Source: a virus. From it: 37,371 bases of DNA. The stretch spans positions 1-37,371 of IMG/VR virus record IMGVR_UViG_3300010392_000110; one strand, written 5' to 3'. Below, piece by piece: positions 16,501 through 37,371 of this stretch. The notes under the pieces were generated by a model. It saw nothing but the letters and a program-made list of their open reading frames with translations, was not told the origin of the DNA and searched no databases. Position numbers and translations under genes: made by a program. The stretch's first letter is position 1, and each line of letters begins with the position of its first letter.

Positions 16501-19056
16501 AAGCACCGCACCGAGCGCATCAAAGGGATGTTTGAGCGTGGCCATGAGTCCCGGGCCGCCGCCCGTGAGCGTGGAAAATCCAGGGTTGAGACGGTGAAGG
16601 AAACCATCCTCACCGGTCTCATTGACAGCGGGTACCCGGTTCTCAAACACCTGGGCCCTTATGAGAAGCGGGGCGGCACCCTTGGCCGGTGGGCCCGGTC
16701 TGTGCGCTATCAGCTGGAGTCCCTGCACTATCTGGCTTCGGAGGCTGATGTTTACCTGCGTGAGGTCCGGGCCGATGTGCTCAAGCCTCTGGATGACGCA
16801 AAAATCCCGGTGGATGAGTTTGGGGTTTACCTCTTCCGTAAGCGGGTCATGGCCGATCGCTCGGAGATAGCCAACCCCCTGGGCCACACCCCTGAGAACG
16901 TGGAAGCCGATCTTGCCAACATGGAGAAGGCCATGGGGGCTGAAAAATTCAAGGTGATGGAAGAGGCAGCCAAGGCGCTGCGCCGTCACCGCAAGGATAA
17001 GATCCTCCCCCTGGTCACCAAGTCCGGACTCTTTACCAAAGAGCTCCTGGAAACGATGTGGAAGGCCGAAGACTACGCCAAGTTCAGCGTCACTCATTGG
17101 CTTGACGAAAAGTTCGGCGGCGGTGTGGGCGCGGCCATTTACCAGCAGGTCGGGACCCTCTCTGAAATAGAAAACCCATTGATCCCCACGGTCCTCCAAG
17201 ACTTTTCCATGATCCGCGCCGCCCGGATCAACGAAGCAAAAAAAGAGATGGTGAAGGTCTTGCATCTCTCTCAGGCCATCGAGCCCGCGAAAATGGTCTG
17301 GTCTGCCGAGGTAAAGGGCAAGGTGGCCAAGCCGCCACCGGATCCCCACCAGGCGCTCTTAACCGTCATGCTCAAAGGCAAGCCCCGCCATTTTTACGTG
17401 AGCAGGAAGGTGGCGGAGATGTTCGCGTATGCGCCCGTGGAAGCCAAGGCCGTGGCTAAAGTCATGGCCGCCATCTCCCAGCCCATCCGTGAAATCCTGG
17501 TGACCAAGAACCCGATCTGGATGGTGCGTAACGTGGTTCGGGATTTCTTTACAACCCGCAAGAACATCCCCGAGGTTCGCATTCGCGATATCTTCAAGCT
17601 TGCCGGGTACTACAAGCGGGCTTTCGGCGAGGTCTACCGGGAGGTTTACAAGGGCGAGAGGTCCGATGTGATCCGCAAGATGATGGCGGAGCGTATGCTG
17701 GTGAAGCACCGGATCTGGACCGGCAAGGAGGAGACCTTTGATACCGAGCTTGACCGCCTGGCCGCCGAGTTCGAGCTGGTGTCGGCTGCCCATCGTGCAG
17801 CCCCCGGGGCCCGGCGCAAGCTGAAACAATTCTGGGAGGCCCTGGATAGAACGGGCCGTATGTCCGACATATGGGGCAAGGTGGCCGGGTACCGCTATCT
17901 CCAGGACCAGGGCACCCGGGACATTCGGGAGATCGGTCATATCATCCGGACACGGGTGGGGACCCCTGACATCTACCGGCGCGGGGCCTGGCAGATCGTC
18001 ACCAATAACCTTTTCATGTTCTCCAACGTCGGCAAAGAGGGGATCCGCGCCAGCATCGAGTCTTTTTTTGACGACAAATCAGCCTACATCACCAAGACGG
18101 TCTGGATGAACATCATGCCCAAGCTTCTCATCGGGGCCCTGGGCTCCGGGGCTATCCTCTACATGCTGGAGCACGGCGACGACACCAAGGACGATTCTTC
18201 GCTTATTACCCAAACCAGAAAATTCAAGCGGATCATTGACGGTATCCCCGAATACGACCTGGCTTATTACACCATCGTGCCCCTGGGCCTCACCAACGAA
18301 GGGAAGTCGGTTTACCTGCGCATTCCCAACGATTACGAGGGGCAGTTTTGGGGCGCGGTTGGGCACAAGATCCTGGGCGCGAAATTCACCGGGCATGACG
18401 GCGTCATCAATACCATTGCCGAACACCAGCCCTACTCACCGAACCCCGTAATCACCGCCTTGGCCCACAACTACACCTACTACGTCAAAGGCCAGAACCC
18501 CGTGGACAACTACCGGGGCCGGGGCATCATCCCCAAACGCGCCTTTGAGGCAGGCGGGGCCCCCGCCCGTCGGGCAATGGCCAAGGCTACCTGGAAAGAG
18601 CTGGGCGGATCCGTCATCTACACCCCGGCCTACGACGACCTCACCAGAGACCGCACCAATTGGGAAAAGGCCCTCTCTGTCCAGCCCTTCAGCATGCTGG
18701 GGGCGTTCTTGAAGATCACGGACCAGGGCATCTCCGAAAAGATCAACCGGGCTCTCTCCGATCGCCGTAGCGAGAAAGCCAAAGAAGGGCTCACCCGAAC
18801 TAACGGCCTGATCCGCCTCCTCAACGGCGACACCGTCACCGAAGAGCAGATGGTGGCCATCGCCCGCCAGAAGACCCATCCCTTGCATAAAGAGGTGTTG
18901 CGCCTGGTGGGCAGGCAGGCCGGAACCGCATGGGTTTCAGCATTAACCCGGGCCCAGGGCAGAGAAGAGACAGCCATCGTTTTACAGGTACTGCTCGACC
19001 ACAACTTCATCCCACAAGGTGGGAGCAGCTTAAAAGGGGGAAAGGATGGAGGGTAA
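13525..19056 (+). CDS. Giant polyvalent internal virion protein with zinc-peptidase motif and LPD38-like region
   Basis: An 1843-residue protein, the largest in the genome. Residues 1-110 and about 310-430 are Pro-rich linkers holding four short repeats of the type DLFGGEPP (near residues 13, 26, 370 and 402). A hydrophobic segment lies near 165-195. HEIGH at residues 716-720 is a zinc-metallopeptidase signature. The C-terminal third (from about 1300, 'ISQPIREILVTKNPIWMVRN') resembles the large polyvalent protein-associated domain LPD38, with another hydrophobic stretch near 1530. Such proteins are thought to be injected with the DNA, like T7 gp16. The peptidase could open the cell wall or act on host targets; this is inference. 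Confidence 0.8.
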   Translation: MTRTATPYMPPVDLFDGKPPQKEPVDLFGGEPPDSGPGFFSRMGERLNDMGPSRPIEIFPAQGGQSPVAVATAAPTETAPEQGATPQTGTVPVLLPAPERSPFQRMGDALRGSFRSSPDRNAIALALSEKHQISPTDALKHFDELTKNLRDQPTSKEYMTGLLTAPVVAGLVTNPLTTLGALAGFTGIAEAENFVVSKVQDKKYTPLAGENLTSFLPADTAPNAELAVEIIDFLGKGAVTSLGMKGVTGSAWFRKLTKRERGLLVLDVAAREKQGVSKGQAIREAIRARGGKETAEGKALFKEMQDKYVRGEKGAEPQASNPAQPAEPGPVSPATPPPAPAEGPVVPAPVQARPAVAPVPDVAPGGPLVDLLAGEPPAKVIPFPEPSQVSQSVAPAVDAPKDLLGGKPPQLSPKTSQPDPPSGGPDPAILKNAYEIMREEMQNSQTKGTTVDIDGTRRFHGASSPQWMKEINAEAKASKENLYTRRELGVLLSKAANGKSMTEKQAIRFERVQEAAEGLAGSHPDLVAAQDASLMEKKGYEVVGRQKVPAVELEEGDKFVGTVDGIHDEYTVKGDAPNGDVIIKDGVTHRVDPFDTVTVEGLKRNEKPPRRPVSTASGFGDTGGYASRAQGAKQNASNGAPGGGPAPGDTAEAVVMQMPEIVELAQQLMDGKLPHVARKFRSAGTMGMFTPKGSGKIRILADLFKDTEQASKVMAHEIGHLVDYLPDRMIKGRGNILGRIASLKGYLKHTISEKPGGAPPLTPADRTRLKKEARALLKAEAFEKGLDQEITRTLPVEPKDLLSIFNAVEPTENVSDELLLFIKGLSTAEKKSIVKAAMKGRVPEEVQAFAKVVKEKVAKQPKVGIPGHYLNVKGKRVSEAEIRAKYRELVEEEIKKRRLIKLELVMAELKGFTQKWKPFDLAANPKYTKYRHSGPELYADALSAMITDPAYLKAEAPVFYQSWWNYLENKPTVKQLYEEIRTEISHGSESLSKHRTERIKGMFERGHESRAAARERGKSRVETVKETILTGLIDSGYPVLKHLGPYEKRGGTLGRWARSVRYQLESLHYLASEADVYLREVRADVLKPLDDAKIPVDEFGVYLFRKRVMADRSEIANPLGHTPENVEADLANMEKAMGAEKFKVMEEAAKALRRHRKDKILPLVTKSGLFTKELLETMWKAEDYAKFSVTHWLDEKFGGGVGAAIYQQVGTLSEIENPLIPTVLQDFSMIRAARINEAKKEMVKVLHLSQAIEPAKMVWSAEVKGKVAKPPPDPHQALLTVMLKGKPRHFYVSRKVAEMFAYAPVEAKAVAKVMAAISQPIREILVTKNPIWMVRNVVRDFFTTRKNIPEVRIRDIFKLAGYYKRAFGEVYREVYKGERSDVIRKMMAERMLVKHRIWTGKEETFDTELDRLAAEFELVSAAHRAAPGARRKLKQFWEALDRTGRMSDIWGKVAGYRYLQDQGTRDIREIGHIIRTRVGTPDIYRRGAWQIVTNNLFMFSNVGKEGIRASIESFFDDKSAYITKTVWMNIMPKLLIGALGSGAILYMLEHGDDTKDDSSLITQTRKFKRIIDGIPEYDLAYYTIVPLGLTNEGKSVYLRIPNDYEGQFWGAVGHKILGAKFTGHDGVINTIAEHQPYSPNPVITALAHNYTYYVKGQNPVDNYRGRGIIPKRAFEAGGAPARRAMAKATWKELGGSVIYTPAYDDLTRDRTNWEKALSVQPFSMLGAFLKITDQGISEKINRALSDRRSEKAKEGLTRTNGLIRLLNGDTVTEEQMVAIARQKTHPLHKEVLRLVGRQAGTAWVSALTRAQGREETAIVLQVLLDHNFIPQGGSSLKGGKDGG

Positions 19057-19390
19057 ACTGGTTTGGTACATTGTGTCCGGATGTCTTGGGGTTGCCTCTA
19101 CTTTGGCTGCGAGGTTGATCTGGCGGGGACTCAACAGTCTTGGAAGTAAAGACAACATTCAGTCTGAGCCGGTGGCCGCTGCCTGCCAATGCGACTCCAA
19201 GCAGTGTCAGGACCACGAGCACCGTCTCATCGACCTGGAGCACCGGGTTGATGAAAACACAAAAGACCTGGCCAGCGCCGATACGGCCTTCAAAGAGATT
19301 CAAGTACACCTGGGAAGCATAGATAAAAACGTGGCGGTCCTCCTGGATCGCTCCGACCGAGTACGCAAGGGGGATGACGATGAAGGATGA
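19046..19390 (+). CDS. Small membrane-anchored coiled-coil protein
   Basis: A 114-residue protein with one N-terminal membrane segment (about residues 5-26, LVWYIVSGCLGVASTLAA) and a C-terminal coiled coil (EHRLIDLEHRVDENTKDL...). Several Cys lie between them (ACQCDSKQC). An inner-spanin-like or holin-like role is possible from this shape, but no family match is claimed. It overlaps the giant gene at its start and the tailspike at its end, so it is co-translated with virion genes. Confidence 0.7.
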   Translation: MEGKLVWYIVSGCLGVASTLAARLIWRGLNSLGSKDNIQSEPVAAACQCDSKQCQDHEHRLIDLEHRVDENTKDLASADTAFKEIQVHLGSIDKNVAVLLDRSDRVRKGDDDEG

Positions 19391-25213: not shown

Positions 25214-25406
25214 AGAGATTATCAAGGCAGCGGGAAAGCTTGATCTACGGCCTGACAGAGAGTGGTTATGGGCTGAAACCGTACGAAGTGGCGAAGATTC
25301 ACTCGTTCAAGCCTTGGAAACCGATGTTTTTTCCCATGAATACAAAGCTATGAAACTCCGGGAGCTGTTGGCAGAAGCCCGCAAGATCGAGGAGGAGAAC
25401 CCATGA
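25203..25406 (+). CDS. Small helical hypothetical protein
   Basis: A 67-residue charged helical protein (MNREEIIKAAGKL...) with GAGGAGGT nine bases upstream. It overlaps the previous gene by 11 bases and the next by four (ATGA). No known family; tight coupling to the helicase-like gene that follows suggests it works with the replication module. Confidence 0.7.
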   Translation: MNREEIIKAAGKLDLRPDREWLWAETVRSGEDSLVQALETDVFSHEYKAMKLRELLAEARKIEEENP

Positions 25407-26053
25407 AACTCAAACACAACTACAACCAAGATGTCACCGTGGAACGCTTCTTTCCCGGCACCCTGGACGCCATTTTGCGTGTGGCCTGCAAAGAGCAGGG
25501 TGTCACTTTGCCCGTGGTCCTGGACACCTCGGCGAAGTGCCCCGGGTGGATGAGGTTTTTGAATGAGACTTTCCCTCGGCGAAGGTGGGATGCGCAGAAG
25601 CTGAAGCAATTCTTCGGGGCGGCGATGGTTCCGAAGCCGTTAGGGAAACGATTATTGGTCCTGTTTGGCCCCGCTGCCAGCGGCAAGAGCGTGACCGTGT
25701 CGGTTATGGTCCACCTCGTGGGGCGTGAGAATAAAGACCAATTGCAGATGGATATCCATGATGGTGTGTACCTGAATGGATCCAGTTATCCCCGGGTTTG
25801 GATGGCGGTGAATAACCTCGCCGATGCTCGTTTTTTGACTGTTGCAACCACCAATTCCCTATCCAATCAAGTGGCCCACCACGGGGTTTACCACGAAGTG
25901 ATCGTCCATGATCGCGTAGACCCCCGCTACATCGACCCCACCCTCACCACCCGACTCAAAGACGAACTCCCCGGAATCTATTTGTGGGCCCTGCGCGGAC
26001 TCCATGACCTGGTGGACGGGGATTACTCGAAAATTCACAACCCGAAGGGTTGA
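25403..26053 (+). CDS. Shrunken SF3 helicase paralogue (Walker A only)
   Basis: A 216-residue P-loop protein that aligns by eye with the SF3 part of the helicase at 26802. Shared marks are 'LPV..D..AKCP.W..FL', 'QFFG', Walker A (here GPAASGKS, residues 89-96), the NN/ND sensor region (residue 137) and the end block 'GIYLWALRGL' (191-200) matching 'GIFMWMLDGL'. About 44 residues between Walker A and the sensor are missing, including the Walker B acid, and the arginine-finger pair RR is replaced by YH. The zinc/D5_N part and the C-terminal winged helix are absent. It could bind ATP and modulate or co-assemble with the main helicase. Likely a duplication product. Confidence 0.72.
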   Translation: MKLKHNYNQDVTVERFFPGTLDAILRVACKEQGVTLPVVLDTSAKCPGWMRFLNETFPRRRWDAQKLKQFFGAAMVPKPLGKRLLVLFGPAASGKSVTVSVMVHLVGRENKDQLQMDIHDGVYLNGSSYPRVWMAVNNLADARFLTVATTNSLSNQVAHHGVYHEVIVHDRVDPRYIDPTLTTRLKDELPGIYLWALRGLHDLVDGDYSKIHNPKG

Positions 26054-26056
26054 CCT

Positions 26057-26818
26057 ATGAATCCATCCCTCACATACACCCTGTTTTTCCACCCCGGCGA
26101 AGTCGTTGAAATCCGCGCTTACGGGTGCAAAAAGCAAAATTCTGCCTGGGAAGGCTGGGCCTCGGACATCGTGTATGGGTATTTCGACAACGCCGATGAT
26201 TTCGGCAGGGCTGCCGAAGCCCTGGACCGGGCCGGGGCCGGGGGAATTTACTTCACAGTCAATCCGGTGAACCCGGACCTGTTGGCCAGGGCGTACAACA
26301 GGTTAAAGGCCGCCGAGAAGAAAGGGACCCTTACCACAGACAAGGATGTTCTCGTGTTGCGGTGGCTTCTCCTGGATCTGGATCCCATTCGGCCCAAGGG
26401 AATCTCCTCCACCGATGACGAGCTGGCCGCCGCTGACGAGTTGCGACGCCGGATCTCCGCCTTCCTCATCAAAGAGCTTGGTTTCTCTGCCGGGGTGCCC
26501 GGTTGCTCCGGCAACGGGGCCCACATGTCCTACCGCCTGGCCGACCTCCCCAACACTGACGCCAATAAGCAGATGCTTTCCACATGCCTGAAGGCCCTGG
26601 CCCAGCAATTCAGCACAGATGTCGTGGATGTGGATGAGGTGGTGTTCAACCCGGCGCGGATCTGGAAGCTCTACGGCACCACGGCCAGGAAAGGTGACTC
26701 CACCGAGCGCCGCCCCCACAGGCAAAGCTATATCGAACCCCGGTGGCTGGAGCCGCCGGAACCCGTGACTGAACCTGAACCAGAGAACGAGACGGAACCT
26801 GATGAAAACGCTGTCTGA
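26057..26818 (+). CDS. Primase of the archaeo-eukaryotic (AEP / PrimPol) superfamily
   Basis: A 253-residue protein with the three AEP motifs: hhhDhD at residues 104-109 (LLLDLD, metal-binding D107 and D109), SGNGAH at 151-156, and the third acidic motif near D191-D193, followed by NPARIWKLYGT and RKG, as in plasmid and phage prim-pols. The C-terminal tail is Pro/Glu-rich. It would lay primers for phage DNA replication. It overlaps the helicase gene by 17 bases, so the two form a split version of the P4-type primase-helicase. Confidence 0.87.
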   Translation: MNPSLTYTLFFHPGEVVEIRAYGCKKQNSAWEGWASDIVYGYFDNADDFGRAAEALDRAGAGGIYFTVNPVNPDLLARAYNRLKAAEKKGTLTTDKDVLVLRWLLLDLDPIRPKGISSTDDELAAADELRRRISAFLIKELGFSAGVPGCSGNGAHMSYRLADLPNTDANKQMLSTCLKALAQQFSTDVVDVDEVVFNPARIWKLYGTTARKGDSTERRPHRQSYIEPRWLEPPEPVTEPEPENETEPDENAV

Positions 26819-28574
26819 CATATCCATCACCCAGGCGGAGACCCTGGAGAAGCTTGCGGCCACCTATGTACCGCCGGAGCCCAAGGCGAAGCCCGAAACC
26901 TCGAAGGCGCAGGGCAAGCCGTCCCCGGGTGGTTCGTCCGGGAACTCCCTTGGGGCGGTTGATGTAGGAAAATACCTCAGTCATTACGGACGGGAACACA
27001 CCGTCAAAGAGGATGGTGGCCGGACCCTGTATGTACTCGCTCAGTGTGTGTTCAACCCTGAGCACGGCTCCGGGGACGCCTCCATCATCCAGGATGGTTC
27101 GGGGAAGATGAGCTACCACTGCTTCCACAACTCCTGCAAAGGTCGCACCTGGCGGGATGCCCGAAGCGCCATCTCCGGAGAGGAATCCCTGGCGCAGTTC
27201 TGCGCTGGTTTCGATCCCAACTTCCAGCCCGCGCCCAAGAAATCCCGGTTCGCCAAGCCCGACAAGAAGCCTCCCAGCGGCGAGGGGAAGCCCATACCCG
27301 GCGACTTCTTTGATGGCCGATCCTTTATCCCCCAATACCTGGCCATTTACCTGGAGGAGCAGTTCAACCCCATTTTGTTTGACGGCGCGGACCTCTACCG
27401 CTACCTGGACACCGGCGTCTGGCAGAAGACCGAGCCCGCCGCCCTGGGGCAGGTTGCGGAGCGGGTTCTCGATTACCGGGCGAAACCCGCCCACATCAAC
27501 GACGGCATCAGTCTCTTGGAGAAGCGGCGATACATTCCGGCGGATGAGTTCAAGCATAACCCAAATTTTCTTAACCTCACCACCGGCATGCTGGAGATCG
27601 AGACCATGGAGATGTACCCCCATGCGCCGGATTACCACAGCCGGATCCAGCTGCCCGTGGGGTTTGATTTAGACGCCAAGTGCCCCCGGTGGGAGCAGTT
27701 CCTGGAGGAGGTTTTCCCGGGGCCCGACGGCAAGCAAAAGGCCCTCTGCCTGCAATCTTTCTTCGGCTATTGCCTTCTCCCTGACTGCCGGTTTCAAAAA
27801 TGCCTCTTCATGATCGGGGCCGGTGCAAACGGCAAGAGTGTGGTCACGGATGTCCTGGTGGGGGTCGTGGGTAAGCAAAACATTTCCTCGCTGCCGTTTC
27901 AGCTCTTCGGGCAGCGTTTCCTCATCGGCCAGCTCAACAACAAGCTTATCAACGTGGCCGGAGAGGTGGATACCAGCAATCCCATTGACACCGCCAACTT
28001 CAAGGATGCGGTATCCGGGGGCCTGCTCATGGCGGATGAGAAGCACGGCAAGCCCTTTGGGTTTTACCCCATAGCAAAGCATCTCTTTTCTATGAACGAC
28101 GTGCCGAAGATCAGCGACAAGTCCCACGGCTTTCAGCGCCGCCCCATTGTCCTCCAGTTCACTGAGCGGTTCGGTGAGGATCGGCGGGATCCACTCCTTA
28201 CTCAGAAACTCCTGGACGAGAAGGACGGCATTTTTATGTGGATGCTCGACGGACTCCAGATGATCCTCAATCACGGCGGGCTCATCGTTCCTGATGTGGT
28301 TGCCAAGGATGGTGAGGAGTTTATCAAGTCAATCAACCCGGTTCTCCTCTTCGCAGATGATTGCTGTGATTTCGAGGAGCATCGGTCTGTGGAGCCTCCG
28401 AAACTCTATGAAGAGTACTCAAAATGGTGCAGCGAGGGTAAAAACCGGGCGCTCTCACGCAACAAGTTTTACCAGCAAATATTGATCCATTTTCCTGACG
28501 TTAAAAAGAAGCAAGTAGGCCCTCAACGCCTCCGGTGTTTTGTCGGCATGGGCCTCAAGAACACCTATGGATAA
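26802..28574 (+). CDS. Zinc-finger/D5-type SF3 replicative helicase
   Basis: A 590-residue protein. Residues 82-112 form a CHC2-like zinc site (C82, H88, C107, H109, C112). A D5_N-like region follows, then an SF3 ATPase: Walker A GAGANGKS (339-346), Walker B region NVAGEVD (384-390), sensor MND (431-433) and RR (446-447) as likely arginine finger. The C-terminal 80 residues form a winged-helix block (LYEEYSKWC...SRNKFYQ). This is the P4-type helicase layout, with the primase in the neighbouring gene. It should unwind DNA at the phage origin. Two nearby genes carry copies of its parts. Confidence 0.9.
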   Translation: MKTLSDISITQAETLEKLAATYVPPEPKAKPETSKAQGKPSPGGSSGNSLGAVDVGKYLSHYGREHTVKEDGGRTLYVLAQCVFNPEHGSGDASIIQDGSGKMSYHCFHNSCKGRTWRDARSAISGEESLAQFCAGFDPNFQPAPKKSRFAKPDKKPPSGEGKPIPGDFFDGRSFIPQYLAIYLEEQFNPILFDGADLYRYLDTGVWQKTEPAALGQVAERVLDYRAKPAHINDGISLLEKRRYIPADEFKHNPNFLNLTTGMLEIETMEMYPHAPDYHSRIQLPVGFDLDAKCPRWEQFLEEVFPGPDGKQKALCLQSFFGYCLLPDCRFQKCLFMIGAGANGKSVVTDVLVGVVGKQNISSLPFQLFGQRFLIGQLNNKLINVAGEVDTSNPIDTANFKDAVSGGLLMADEKHGKPFGFYPIAKHLFSMNDVPKISDKSHGFQRRPIVLQFTERFGEDRRDPLLTQKLLDEKDGIFMWMLDGLQMILNHGGLIVPDVVAKDGEEFIKSINPVLLFADDCCDFEEHRSVEPPKLYEEYSKWCSEGKNRALSRNKFYQQILIHFPDVKKKQVGPQRLRCFVGMGLKNTYG

Positions 28575-28587
28575 GGAGGGACAGACC

Positions 28588-29064
28588 ATGCCACTGAAAA
28601 TGAAATACTTTATCGTAAAACCGGGCAGTAAAAAGCCCGGTGACCTGCATGCCATCGCATCCCGCGCAGCCCTCCGGGCCTATGCCGCTGAGATTCGGCA
28701 TTGCGATGGCACCCTGGCTGTGGAGCTGGAGCAGTGGGCGGACCGGGAAATGAACCTGGACGCCCAGCTCCAGAGAGACCGACGCCTCGCCCTGGACCAT
28801 GTGGCCATCTTTGTTGAGGAGTGTTGTGTCCGGATGGTGAGTGCGTTTGTGGGGATGGACCGACTTTATCAGGCGTACCTGGAGTGGTGCGGGAATTTTG
28901 AGGTGCAGCCCGGTTCTCGAAAGAATTTCGCCGAGCGGATCCGAAAGATGGGGTTTCGTTTCAATCGCGATTGCACGAAGAAGATCTCCGTCCAGGGCCT
29001 GATCCTCTCTGAAGATGTCGTAAGGCAGGCTGCTCCGAGACCGAGGGAAGAGGAAAGGCAATAG
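28588..29064 (+). CDS. Free-standing copy of the SF3 helicase C-terminal domain
   Basis: A 158-residue protein. Its second half aligns by eye with the C-terminus of the upstream helicase: FVEECC (75-80) against FADDCC (517-522), LYQAYLEWC (93-101) against LYEEYSKWC, and SRKNFAERI against SRNKFYQQI. The first 70 residues are a different helical region. The domain is the winged-helix part that D5/P4-type helicases use for DNA or partner contact. AAGGAGG precedes ATG 28588; an earlier in-frame ATG at 28567 lacks one. It may help load the helicase or recognise the origin. Confidence 0.72.
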   Translation: MPLKMKYFIVKPGSKKPGDLHAIASRAALRAYAAEIRHCDGTLAVELEQWADREMNLDAQLQRDRRLALDHVAIFVEECCVRMVSAFVGMDRLYQAYLEWCGNFEVQPGSRKNFAERIRKMGFRFNRDCTKKISVQGLILSEDVVRQAAPRPREEERQ

Positions 29065-31452: not shown

Positions 31453-31728
31453 ATGGGAGTTGTCGCAGTGATGCAGCATACCTACGCGATAAAGGACGGC
31501 TATGACGGGCCCCCGGTTTGTCTGGGCCGGGTCCCGCGTGGCCATGAGATCGAGGGCACGGTGGCCGCCCGGGCCACGGAGTTCACGAATAACAGTTACC
31601 CCCATAAATGTTGGGTCCGGCATGGGAAAATTCATTTGGTGGGCACCGGGAAGCGGCGGGTATGCCACGCCAAACTAACGGTGGCTGTGCGTTTCAAGCC
31701 CCGGGCCAGCAAAGGGCCCCGCCGATGA
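31453..31728 (+). CDS. Hypothetical small basic protein
   Basis: A 91-residue basic protein, probably beta-rich (KIHLVGTGKRRVCHAKLTVA), ending in Arg/Lys. AAAGG lies 9 bases before the ATG. It overlaps the following lipoprotein gene by ATGA, suggesting a coupled pair. No known family. Confidence 0.6.
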   Translation: MGVVAVMQHTYAIKDGYDGPPVCLGRVPRGHEIEGTVAARATEFTNNSYPHKCWVRHGKIHLVGTGKRRVCHAKLTVAVRFKPRASKGPRR

Positions 31729-32099
31729 TCTTGCGGTGGCTGGGGGTGGCGGCTCTTATCCTGTGCTGTGGCTGCTTCCCCCGCGCCCCCTGGGTGGTGG
31801 ACCCCGCTGCTCTGGACCGTGATGTCAGGTGCCGGCTCCAGCTCTACCCCTCCCGCTCCGATTACCGGATCCTCATCGTTCCGGACCGGGCGACGGTGGC
31901 CGCCGAACACACAAAGATATACGGGAGCCCCACCCGGGCCCCCGCTTTTTATTCATCCATCAAGAATCTCATCGTGATTCCACGTGGGTGCCGGATCCGG
32001 GTACTCCGCCACGAGATAGGTCATGCCGTGGTGGAGGCGTATTTCCAGGCTCCGGTGCCCAGGTGGCTGCACGAACAGTTAGCTCGTAAAGCCGAATAG
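31725..32099 (+). CDS. Putative lipoprotein zinc metallopeptidase
   Basis: A 124-residue protein with an N-terminal hydrophobic signal and a Cys-rich lipobox-like site (LILCCGC, likely modified Cys17). Residues 96-100 are HEIGH, the zinc-peptidase signature. It is followed 16 residues on by W114-L-H-E117, the usual place for the third (Glu) ligand in gluzincin-type enzymes. It is short for a peptidase and ends soon after this, so it may be a minimal or truncated domain. It would be anchored in the envelope, perhaps acting on cell wall or surface proteins. Start ATG 31725 overlaps the previous stop. Confidence 0.65.
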   Translation: MILRWLGVAALILCCGCFPRAPWVVDPAALDRDVRCRLQLYPSRSDYRILIVPDRATVAAEHTKIYGSPTRAPAFYSSIKNLIVIPRGCRIRVLRHEIGHAVVEAYFQAPVPRWLHEQLARKAE

Positions 32100-34711: not shown

Positions 34712-34933
34712 ATGGAGTACATCAGGCGTCATTACCAAGTTCCAGCCAAACGTGGGGCTTTGGTGGAAATACGTGGGGGGAGCAATGGTGATGTCTGCTT
34801 CACCGGGCAAATTGTCGGGTCAAGAGGGGCTCGCCTCAGGGTCAGGGTTGGTGCTCGGATTGGTACATATCACCCCACAGACAACATCGAATACGAGGAG
34901 GTACAAGATGGGACTCAAGAGTTGGATCGTTAA
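34712..34933 (+). CDS. Small conserved-type phage protein, KOW-like
   Basis: A 73-residue basic protein whose pattern, 'YQVPAKRGALVEIRGG' then 'GQIVGSRGARLRVRV' and 'YHPTDNIEYE', resembles a small phage family with a KOW/SH3-like barrel; this is recalled, not searched. Function unknown. A GTG at 34706 overlapping the previous stop is an alternative start. It ends 26 bases inside the lysis fusion gene. Confidence 0.62.
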   Translation: MEYIRRHYQVPAKRGALVEIRGGSNGDVCFTGQIVGSRGARLRVRVGARIGTYHPTDNIEYEEVQDGTQELDR

Positions 34934-35912
34934 CGCAGGCGGTGAGATGGTTGGCCGGGTCCTTGGTGGCGGCAACGAGATCATAAGGACTCTGAAGGGC
35001 AGTCAGGCCGAACGGGACGCCCAGGACGCCGATCGCTTCACGGCGGGGATGGCGGCCTATGCGGCGGAGTGGAATGGGCAGGGATGGTGGAACCGGTTCT
35101 GGGATGGAATCAACCGGATGCCAAGGCCTCTACTTCTGGTGCTGATCCTTTGTTACTTCGTTTTGGCGTATATCGACCCCATTGAGTTCCAGGTACTCAA
35201 TACGACGCTGGGCACGGTACCGGAGACCATGTGGGAGATGCTCAAGTGGATGGTGGGGTTCTACTTCCTGGCCCGGGAGATCCAGAAGGGGCGGGATAAA
35301 AAGATGGCTCTCAGTCCGGCGGCGTTCGCTGAGGTTCAGCGTCGGATCGCGGAGCTGAGGGGCGGTGAACAGGACCCCCCTCCCGTGGCCACCATGGGGG
35401 AGGGCGCGGTTGATGTGAGGAAGGAAGATTCGGTCACGGAAACGATGGCCGGGTACGCTGGATGCCCGGAACCGGCGGAGCCTCCTTGGTATACTTTGGC
35501 CAAGCAGGAGATGGAGGCTGGGGTGGCAGAGATCGCGGGGGATGAGCATAACCCTCGGATCCTGGAGTATCACCAGACCACGACATTGAAGGCCGATGAT
35601 GATGAGAAGGCCTGGTGCAGCGCCTTCATCAACTGGTGTGTGGAGATGACGGGAGTCAAAGGGTCGGGGTCCGCAGCGGCCCGGTCCTGGCTGCAATGGG
35701 GCTTTCGCCTGATGAATCCCCGGCTTGGCTGCGTGGTGGTCTTCAGCCGTGGTCGCAATCCGGCCCATGGTCACGTGGGGTTCTATGTCGGTGAGGCAGA
35801 TGGCAAGGTGATGGTGGTGGGTGGGAACCAGGGGGATCAGGTTTCCGTTGCTGGTTACGCAAAGGATCGGGTCCTCGGTTACCGATGGCCCCGGGAAGGG
35901 ATTGAGGCTTAA
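34908..35912 (+). CDS. Holin-endolysin fusion (GTA-type holin + TIGR02594-like amidase/peptidase)
   Basis: A 334-residue single open frame with two lysis domains. Residues 1-132 look like a GTA_holin_3TM-type holin: an amphipathic start, two clear membrane segments (about 73-90 and 107-124) and a basic end. Residues 133-190 are a linker. Residues 193-330 match the TIGR02594/CHAP-NlpC type: WCSAF with Cys237, GHVGF with His289 and GGNQGD near N307. In related phages these are normally separate holin and endolysin genes. The start is ATG 34908 with GAGGAGGT upstream. An internal Met133 might give free endolysin. It would both perforate the membrane and cut peptidoglycan. Confidence 0.82.
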   Translation: MGLKSWIVNAGGEMVGRVLGGGNEIIRTLKGSQAERDAQDADRFTAGMAAYAAEWNGQGWWNRFWDGINRMPRPLLLVLILCYFVLAYIDPIEFQVLNTTLGTVPETMWEMLKWMVGFYFLAREIQKGRDKKMALSPAAFAEVQRRIAELRGGEQDPPPVATMGEGAVDVRKEDSVTETMAGYAGCPEPAEPPWYTLAKQEMEAGVAEIAGDEHNPRILEYHQTTTLKADDDEKAWCSAFINWCVEMTGVKGSGSAAARSWLQWGFRLMNPRLGCVVVFSRGRNPAHGHVGFYVGEADGKVMVVGGNQGDQVSVAGYAKDRVLGYRWPREGIEA

Positions 35913-35914
35913 CA

Positions 35915-36094
35915 ATGAGTGTGCCTGGTAAAAAACGGTTGCTGACGTACAACGATCTGGTGGGTGAGTACGGTGCCACGAAGACCCACTGGCGGAATCG
36001 GTATTGGGCGGGTGAACTCAAAAGCGTGGGGACGGTGGGTAAGCACCTGTTCAAACGTGAGGATATTGAGGCGGCCCTCGTGTCGAAACCTTGA
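35915..36094 (+). CDS. Excisionase-like small DNA-binding protein
   Basis: A 59-residue protein starting two bases after the lysis gene stop. It has a short helix-turn-helix and wing layout (LLTYNDLVGEYGATKTHW, then KHLFKREDIEAAL) of the HTH_17/excisionase type. Placed directly before the integrase gene and coded on the same strand, it is the best candidate for Xis, which steers the integrase toward excision. No strong ribosome site is visible; translation may depend on the lysis gene. Confidence 0.62.
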   Translation: MSVPGKKRLLTYNDLVGEYGATKTHWRNRYWAGELKSVGTVGKHLFKREDIEAALVSKP

Positions 36095-36166: not shown

Positions 36167-37252
36167 ATGGCAAAGCTCTACAGAAGAGGGAAAATGTGGT
36201 GGATGAGATACACCGACATTCATGGCGTGCAACGCCGTGAGAGTTGCAAGACCACGGTCAAGGCCGTGGCGAATAAGGTTCTGATCAAGGTCGAGGCCGA
36301 CACCCTGGAGGGAAACCAGCCGTACACCGATTATCGAAAGCGGACGTTCGATGAGCTGGTGGAGCTGATCCGATCGGACTACCTGCTCAATCAGAAAGAC
36401 TCCCGCCGGCTGGAAGTGAGCCTGAAGCACTTGTCCCGAAAGTTCGCCGGCTGGTCGATCCCGAGTATCACCAGCACCGAGATCCAAAAGTACACCACGG
36501 ACCGCATCAAGTTCGGTGCTGCGGTGGGGACCGTGAACCGGGAGCGGGCGGCGCTTCGGCGTATGATGAACCTTGGAGCCGATCAGGTACCGCCTCTGGT
36601 GAATCCGCTCAATCGGGTCAAGATCCCGGCCCTGGCGGAGGACAACGTGAAGCAGGGGTTCTTTGAAGAGGCGGATTACCTGGCGTTCCGTGACAAGCTT
36701 CCGCCCTATCTTCATGGCGTTGTCACATTTGGCTATCAGTTCGGGTGGCGTTGGAATGAGGTCGTGGGGCTCACATGGGGCCAGGTGGACCGGCAGCGGT
36801 GGACGGTGCGGGTGGATCGCGGCGTAACCAAGGGTAAGGAAGCTCGCCTGATTTACCTGACGGATGAGTTGATCGAAATGTTTCAGCACCAGTGGTCGGT
36901 ACGGGGGAGGGGCGGCGTTGTTCTGCCCTGGGTTTTCCCGAACCGCAGCGGGAAGGGGCAGATCAGTGACATTCGTTGGAGCTGGGAGAAGGCGGTCAAG
37001 GAGGCCCGTATCCCCAGGAAAACTTTTCACGACCTTCGGAGGACCGCCGTCCGGAATATGGTCCGCAACGGACTCCCGGAGAAAGTGGCCATGCTGATTG
37101 CCGGTTTCAAGACACGGGAGGTGTTCGAAAGATACAACATTGTGGACGAAAGGGATTTGGCTGTTGCAAAAGCCCGGATGGACGAGGTGGTCAATGCAAG
37201 GTCCTCAACACAAATTGTGCACAATTTTAGCACAATGGAGAGAACGTGCTGA
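36167..37252 (+). CDS. int: Tyrosine-family phage integrase
   Basis: A 361-residue integrase. The N-terminal 60 residues are a small arm-binding-type domain (MAKLYRRGKMWWMRY); a SAM-like core-binding domain follows (about 60-155) and then the catalytic domain. Catalytic residues visible: R195 (GWRWNEVVGL), K222 or K224 (TKGKEAR), H288 and R291 (HDLRRTA), and Y323 (FERY). The position usually held by His (or Trp) before the Tyr is Phe314 (AGFKTREVFERY). CAGGAG precedes the ATG. The gene runs into the att repeat and its last 45 bases carry three GCACAA-like sites. It integrates the phage into a tRNA-Leu(CAA) gene. Confidence 0.95.
   Translation: MAKLYRRGKMWWMRYTDIHGVQRRESCKTTVKAVANKVLIKVEADTLEGNQPYTDYRKRTFDELVELIRSDYLLNQKDSRRLEVSLKHLSRKFAGWSIPSITSTEIQKYTTDRIKFGAAVGTVNRERAALRRMMNLGADQVPPLVNPLNRVKIPALAEDNVKQGFFEEADYLAFRDKLPPYLHGVVTFGYQFGWRWNEVVGLTWGQVDRQRWTVRVDRGVTKGKEARLIYLTDELIEMFQHQWSVRGRGGVVLPWVFPNRSGKGQISDIRWSWEKAVKEARIPRKTFHDLRRTAVRNMVRNGLPEKVAMLIAGFKTREVFERYNIVDERDLAVAKARMDEVVNARSSTQIVHNFSTMERTC
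37209..37236 (+). promoter_or_regulatory. Candidate integrase arm-type sites within the end of int
   Basis: CACAA starts at 37209, 37220 and 37231, exactly 11 bases apart, each in an (A/G)CACAA(T/A) context. They lie on the opposite side of the att core from the repeats at 253-304 in the circular form. Confidence 0.5.
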
Positions 37253-37371
37253 AATCTCACCAAAAGAAAAAGCCTTACGCGGCACACGTAAGGCTTTCGA
37301 ATCACTTTGAAATTGGTGGTACCGGAGGTCGGAATCGAACCGACAAGGAGTTGCCCCCGGCGGATTTTGAA
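37245..37371. repeat. Right copy of 127-bp terminal direct repeat (att region)
   Basis: Second copy of 1-127. Here it directly follows and overlaps the end of the integrase gene (stop at 37250-37252), the usual position of attP beside int. Joining the ends gives a circle of 37,244 bp. Confidence 0.95.

Follow-up and report, generated by a model that had tools for sequence, protein, structure and literature searches.

Holins are thought to open the membrane for the passage of many free endolysin molecules. The viral stretch analysed here (IMGVR_UViG_3300010392_000110, 37,371 nt, hereafter the window) holds a single frame that joins a holin-like region to a cell-wall hydrolase, which raises the question of whether this gene is real, and if so, how holin and endolysin could act when made as one chain.

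A single frame with holin and endolysin domains

The fused gene (34908..35912, + strand) consists of 334 codons uninterrupted by a stop in translation, followed by the stop codon. GC at the third codon position is high throughout (0.64-0.84 across both halves and the linker), giving no sign of a frame error. The Shine-Dalgarno region GAGGAGGT (34894..34903, +) lies just 5' of the ATG, with a duplex energy of -13 kcal/mol. By this measure its GAGGAGG was the best of all sites tested, beating each of the 424 internal in-frame start-type codons from the phage's other genes that served as controls. A GTG at 34752 was ruled out as an upstream start since it is without a Shine-Dalgarno, and a scan around the gene found no promoter. 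Two independent full-length homologues, described below, together with the uniform codon-position GC, rule out an assembly error or hidden frameshift. The proposal of an earlier note on this DNA, that a holin and an endolysin share one frame, was therefore upheld: both family profiles matched above their cut-offs, and neither of the findings that the note had named as fatal to it, a concealed stop or frameshift between the domains or a half with no family match, was encountered.

The holin half matches GTA_holin_3TM (PF11351) at residues 18-124 (34959..35279, +; E 1e-16, 61.6 bits against a gathering cut-off of 24.8, profile positions 3-123 of 123), as had been assigned from the letters. Its first transmembrane helix (residues 73-89; 35124..35174, +) appears in the AlphaFold model and is strongly hydrophobic (hydropathy 2.24, residues 74-92). 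The second (residues 106-132; 35223..35303, +), also a helix in the model, is only weakly hydrophobic (0.65, residues 104-122) and ends in a basic stretch, while the N-terminal helix at residues 3-30 is not clearly membrane-spanning by model or hydropathy. Thus, of the two to three spans suggested earlier, two can be recognised by model and hydropathy, one strong and one weak, but not the three clear spans that the family name implies. AlphaFold confidence in this N-terminal part is low to middling (pLDDT about 55-80). Basic residues stand at both outer ends of the hairpin and none in its loop, with seven K/R in residues 120-150 compared with zero in loop 92-106. This charge distribution predicts an N-in/C-in topology for the two-helix hairpin, which would leave the enzyme facing the cytosol.

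Between the two halves lies a flexible linker (residues 154-190; 35367..35477, +), predicted to be disordered, with an AlphaFold pLDDT under 50 across most of residues 154-178. It is shorter and variable in length in the two homologous fusions. Profiles, pLDDT and Foldseek support a TIGR02594/NlpC-P60-CHAP-type catalytic domain at residues 199-327 (35502..35888, +). Its TIGR02594 match (E 4e-40, 137.1 bits, model positions 5-132 of 132) lies above the NCBIfam cut-off of 70.55 bits, in agreement with the hydrolase type first proposed from the motifs WCSAF (residues 236-240), GHVGF (288-292) and GGNQ (305-308), and a CHAP profile matches residues 232-307. All 127 aligned TIGR02594 domains share Cys237, His289 and Asn307, which match the Cys-His-polar catalytic set of NlpC/P60-CHAP enzymes. 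The domain was modelled with a pLDDT of about 97, and Foldseek matched it with modest scores to peptidoglycan hydrolases of the NlpC/P60 and CHAP types, its viral matches including baseplate hub and TIGR02594 proteins; a PDB sequence search with the lysin half gave no match. From its sequence, the lysin half is a putative NlpC/P60-CHAP-type peptidoglycan hydrolase. Among phage proteins, tail or baseplate lysozymes make up most of its closest matches, and membership in this family is therefore in itself no proof of a role in lysis.

Related fusions and separate relatives

A full-length homologue (43% identity over residues 12-329) is present in a Nitrospinota MAG (L065), which was found among the best 80 TIGR02594 loci of a scan that covered one genome per species, with the full protein leading the alignment. 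Its gene follows directly on a long tail-fibre-like gene, in a prophage region that also contains Baseplate_J and Mu Gp48-like genes. Directly downstream of the Nitrospinota fusion gene is a 154-aa multi-span membrane protein (L161:17773-18237), a possible antiholin or additional holin. The third fusion, on a 42-kb viral contig (L162, the same as L166; 42% identity over residues 7-326), was recovered by a pattern search for the conserved holin motif WDGxNRxPRP; single-protein scans of viral contigs with the window protein found nothing. All three fusion genes have a Shine-Dalgarno at their start, and the one-frame arrangement is kept in three diverged phages or prophages.

The holin halves of the three fusions form one clade (support 100/100) in a tree with eight stand-alone relatives. 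In the first lysin tree, the window lysin did not group with the other two, as if this domain had been swapped. We dropped a swap after an AU test, in which a single clade proved at least as good a fit: the tree holding the three fusion lysins together had the higher likelihood and was not rejected (p-AU 0.665). These results are consistent with a shared origin of the lysin halves, and one fusion event behind all three is the simplest reading, if not a proven one.

That both families are usually separate proteins, and that their fusion is rare, had been anticipated, and both points hold. Of eight stand-alone PF11351 genes that were examined, six adjoin a separate endolysin gene. The endolysin is of the GH24 type in L146, L153 and L156, and of the GH108 type in L152 and L163, whereas in L165 (IMGVR_UViG_3300023199_000272) a single protein (L165:823-2013, - strand) combines GH108, PG_binding_3 and a TIGR02594 region, and its gene overlaps the stand-alone GTA_holin_3TM gene. 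No obvious endolysin was found beside the PF11351 gene in L151 or L154. PF11351 was present in 6 of 50 TIGR02594-carrying genomes, sharing a frame with the lysin only in the L065 genome, and among 226 TIGR02594-like frames (all fetched loci, duplicates included) this holin occurred in the three fusions only, compared with many separate genes.

The position of stand-alone PF11351 genes beside endolysins, one of them with a TIGR02594 region, supports lysis as the function of both halves. A different role, as a virion or cell-envelope enzyme that aids DNA entry, for example, as TIGR02594 domains do in baseplate hubs, would accord with the baseplate hub and tail lysozyme proteins that are the best phage matches of the lysin half. 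However, the holin half found no match among phage records, the window gene lies outside the structural cluster, and PF11351 and TIGR02594 form a lysis-like gene pair in L165, so that we consider such a role very improbable.

Several other TIGR02594-like lysins carry membrane helices of other kinds. Those at L207:3686-4408 and L220:597-1232 have different N-terminal multi-helix membrane regions and are apparently further membrane-lysin fusions unrelated to PF11351, while those in L014, L030, L049, L191 and L217 have one or two C-terminal membrane helices, an order opposite to that of the window fusion. The membrane parts of these fusions beyond PF11351, L207 and L220 included, gave no clear holin-family or profile match. 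Since these helices are unrelated, membrane tethering of TIGR02594 enzymes seems to have arisen several times.

A proposed tethered holin-endolysin and its alternatives

We favour, with moderate confidence, the interpretation that the gene produces one polypeptide acting as a covalently tethered holin and endolysin. We infer its lysis function, topology, triggering and tethered activity; tethering of the enzyme is supported by the topology predicted for the modelled hairpin. The N-terminal half would insert as a two-helix hairpin with both ends cytoplasmic, and the folded enzyme half would be kept harmless at the inner membrane face on a flexible linker of about 20-40 residues. Clustering and triggering of these holin parts would then open the membrane, and the attached NlpC/P60-type peptidase could get to the peptidoglycan through a lesion to which its own holin part contributes and cut it, with or without later proteolytic release of the lysin. 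A stricter version, in which every enzyme stays bound to a holin subunit and no endolysin is free, would amount to single-protein lysis in one phage lineage with probably diderm hosts. We put this version forward only tentatively, but if true, hole formation and wall cutting would be locked together in stoichiometry and space.

The main rival to the tethered interpretation is that the gene makes two products: a full-length fusion whose chief role would be that of a holin, and a separate, untethered endolysin of 165 aa that begins at GTG170 (35415..35417, +) behind GGGGGAGGG. Lysis would then proceed in the ordinary two-protein way from one gene. It is the main rival because the Shine-Dalgarno of GTG170 is exceptional (-11.8 kcal/mol, better than 424 of 424 control codons). 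There is also precedent for endolysin genes with dual forms: single genes that yield a full-length and an internally started endolysin are known (PMC9430671, PMC4777826). Against this, the spacing of GTG170 is about 11 nt, longer than ideal, in a G-rich region, and eight codons of the window gene were scored, which entails some multiple testing. In addition, L162 has no internal start with a usable Shine-Dalgarno, and that of L065, at codon 144, is only middling, with 9% of its own control codons equally good. As a GTG170-like site is absent from both, an internal start was rejected as a general mechanism of these fusions and is at most a local feature. The internal start that the earlier note had envisaged as freeing the lysin thus has a good candidate in the window gene but no conserved counterpart in the two related fusions, and we think it unlikely that the gene works through two products.

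The holin half might alternatively be a mere membrane anchor that places or delivers the lysin, with another, unrecognised holin permeabilising the membrane. The weakness of the second helix would be in keeping with this, as would the different membrane helices of the lysins in L014, L030, L049, L191, L217, L207 and L220, a separate downstream gene with a weak holin-model match in L207, and small membrane proteins without family in the window (e.g., that at 19046-19390). Yet the holin domain retains both the full length of its family and the motif WDGxNRMPRP in three of three fusions, and the scan of window proteins recognised neither a separate holin nor another lysis protein. We regard a pure anchor as decidedly improbable.

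Comparison with known systems and the source phage

The earlier note had called the single-gene design new or rare. "New" is too strong, as a natural holin-endolysin fusion with a TpeE-family holin has been published from six Clostridium sporogenes genomes (WP_163247266.1; PMC9527704), whose authors propose transfer of the fused enzyme from the cytosol to the outside, followed by anchored activity or cleavage. Compared by description, both fusions place the holin first, with the endolysin joined at its C-terminus. However, the TpeE holin has a single membrane helix and a monoderm host, whereas the window fusion has no TpeE/BhlA-type holin part but a PF11351 (GTA_holin_3TM) hairpin joined to a TIGR02594 NlpC/P60-CHAP enzyme, and its relatives belong to a Nitrospinota prophage and an uncultivated virus. 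A literature search found no paper on a PF11351-TIGR02594 fusion, subscription journals lying mostly outside its reach. The window fusion is thus genuine, conserved and uncommon, and differs from the published one in both holin family and enzyme.

Among two-gene systems, the gene transfer agent RcGTA likewise combines a holin with a cell-wall hydrolase, in the lysozyme rcc00555 and the holin rcc00556, which, judging by the name of the PF11351 family, is probably one of its members. Unlike the window fusion, the RcGTA pair and the GH108/PF11351 pairs (e.g., Paracoccus, L152, where the genes overlap by one base) are two genes with the endolysin first and with another enzyme class. When rcc00555 is disrupted, gene transfer is reported to fall and RcGTA particles to stay trapped in the cells (PMC3423380). 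The L165 pair shares both families with the fusion, PF11351 and TIGR02594 lying in adjacent overlapping genes, but they are separate proteins, and the endolysin, upstream of the holin, has the additional GH108 and PG_binding_3 domains.

Membrane tethering is also a property of the SAR endolysins that work with pinholins (phage 21, P1 Lyz), which are inactive until the holin triggers. In those systems the enzyme is exported and tethered by a single releasable helix, and the holin is a protein of its own, whereas the window protein would be tethered by its holin domain, with the enzyme predicted to lie in the cytosol. In place of a single, weakly hydrophobic, releasable N-terminal export helix directly before the enzyme, the window protein has a two-helix hairpin with a basic C-side, and its linker is about 40 residues long. 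The conserved one-to-one fusion can be seen as a natural test of whether the edge of the hole can present the enzyme to the wall, and of the size that the membrane lesion must have. It also strengthens the link between lysis and the little-studied GTA_holin_3TM family and, judged from sequence, may serve as a compact tool for lysis by a single gene.

The gene is placed between an integrase and small regulatory genes, outside the structural operon, a location that counts against the tethered-lysis interpretation. Two nucleotides past its stop begins a small HTH gene in an excisionase-like position (35915..36094, +; weak HTH_17), which is followed by a tyrosine integrase (36167..37252, +; Pfam Phage_integrase, 2e-18). 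Positions 1-127 and 37245-37371 of the window are identical and form a direct terminal repeat, which fits a complete, circular genome of about 37.2 kb. Beside the integrase, this 127-base repeat includes the 3' end of a tRNA (Leu by eye) and likely contains attP; ARAGORN reported no whole tRNA. The source phage is temperate. Its portal, major head, terminase and internal virion proteins could be recognised, the portal being related, at about 25% identity, to those of podovirus-type phages that infect Roseobacter, Pelagibacter and other hosts. Searches with the portal and the integrase yielded distant matches only and pointed to no firm host; it is from distant relatives only that the host appears to be diderm.

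A second TIGR02594, Phage_lysozyme or Amidase_2 match was not found in the window. Many of its ORFs are without any match, and lysis genes that escaped recognition may possibly lie among them. The ORF at 19046-19390 encodes a 114-aa protein with an N-terminal membrane helix, a probable coiled coil and no family match, possibly a spanin or second lysis protein. A predicted lipoprotein at 31608-32099 has a HEIGH zinc-peptidase-like motif and no Pfam match. Finally, the replication genes at 25403-29064 look partly duplicated: a helicase-core-like ORF (25403-26053) and a primase-like ORF precede a full D5_N/DUF5906 helicase (26802-28574), after which comes an extra Pox_D5-type winged-helix ORF (28540-29064).
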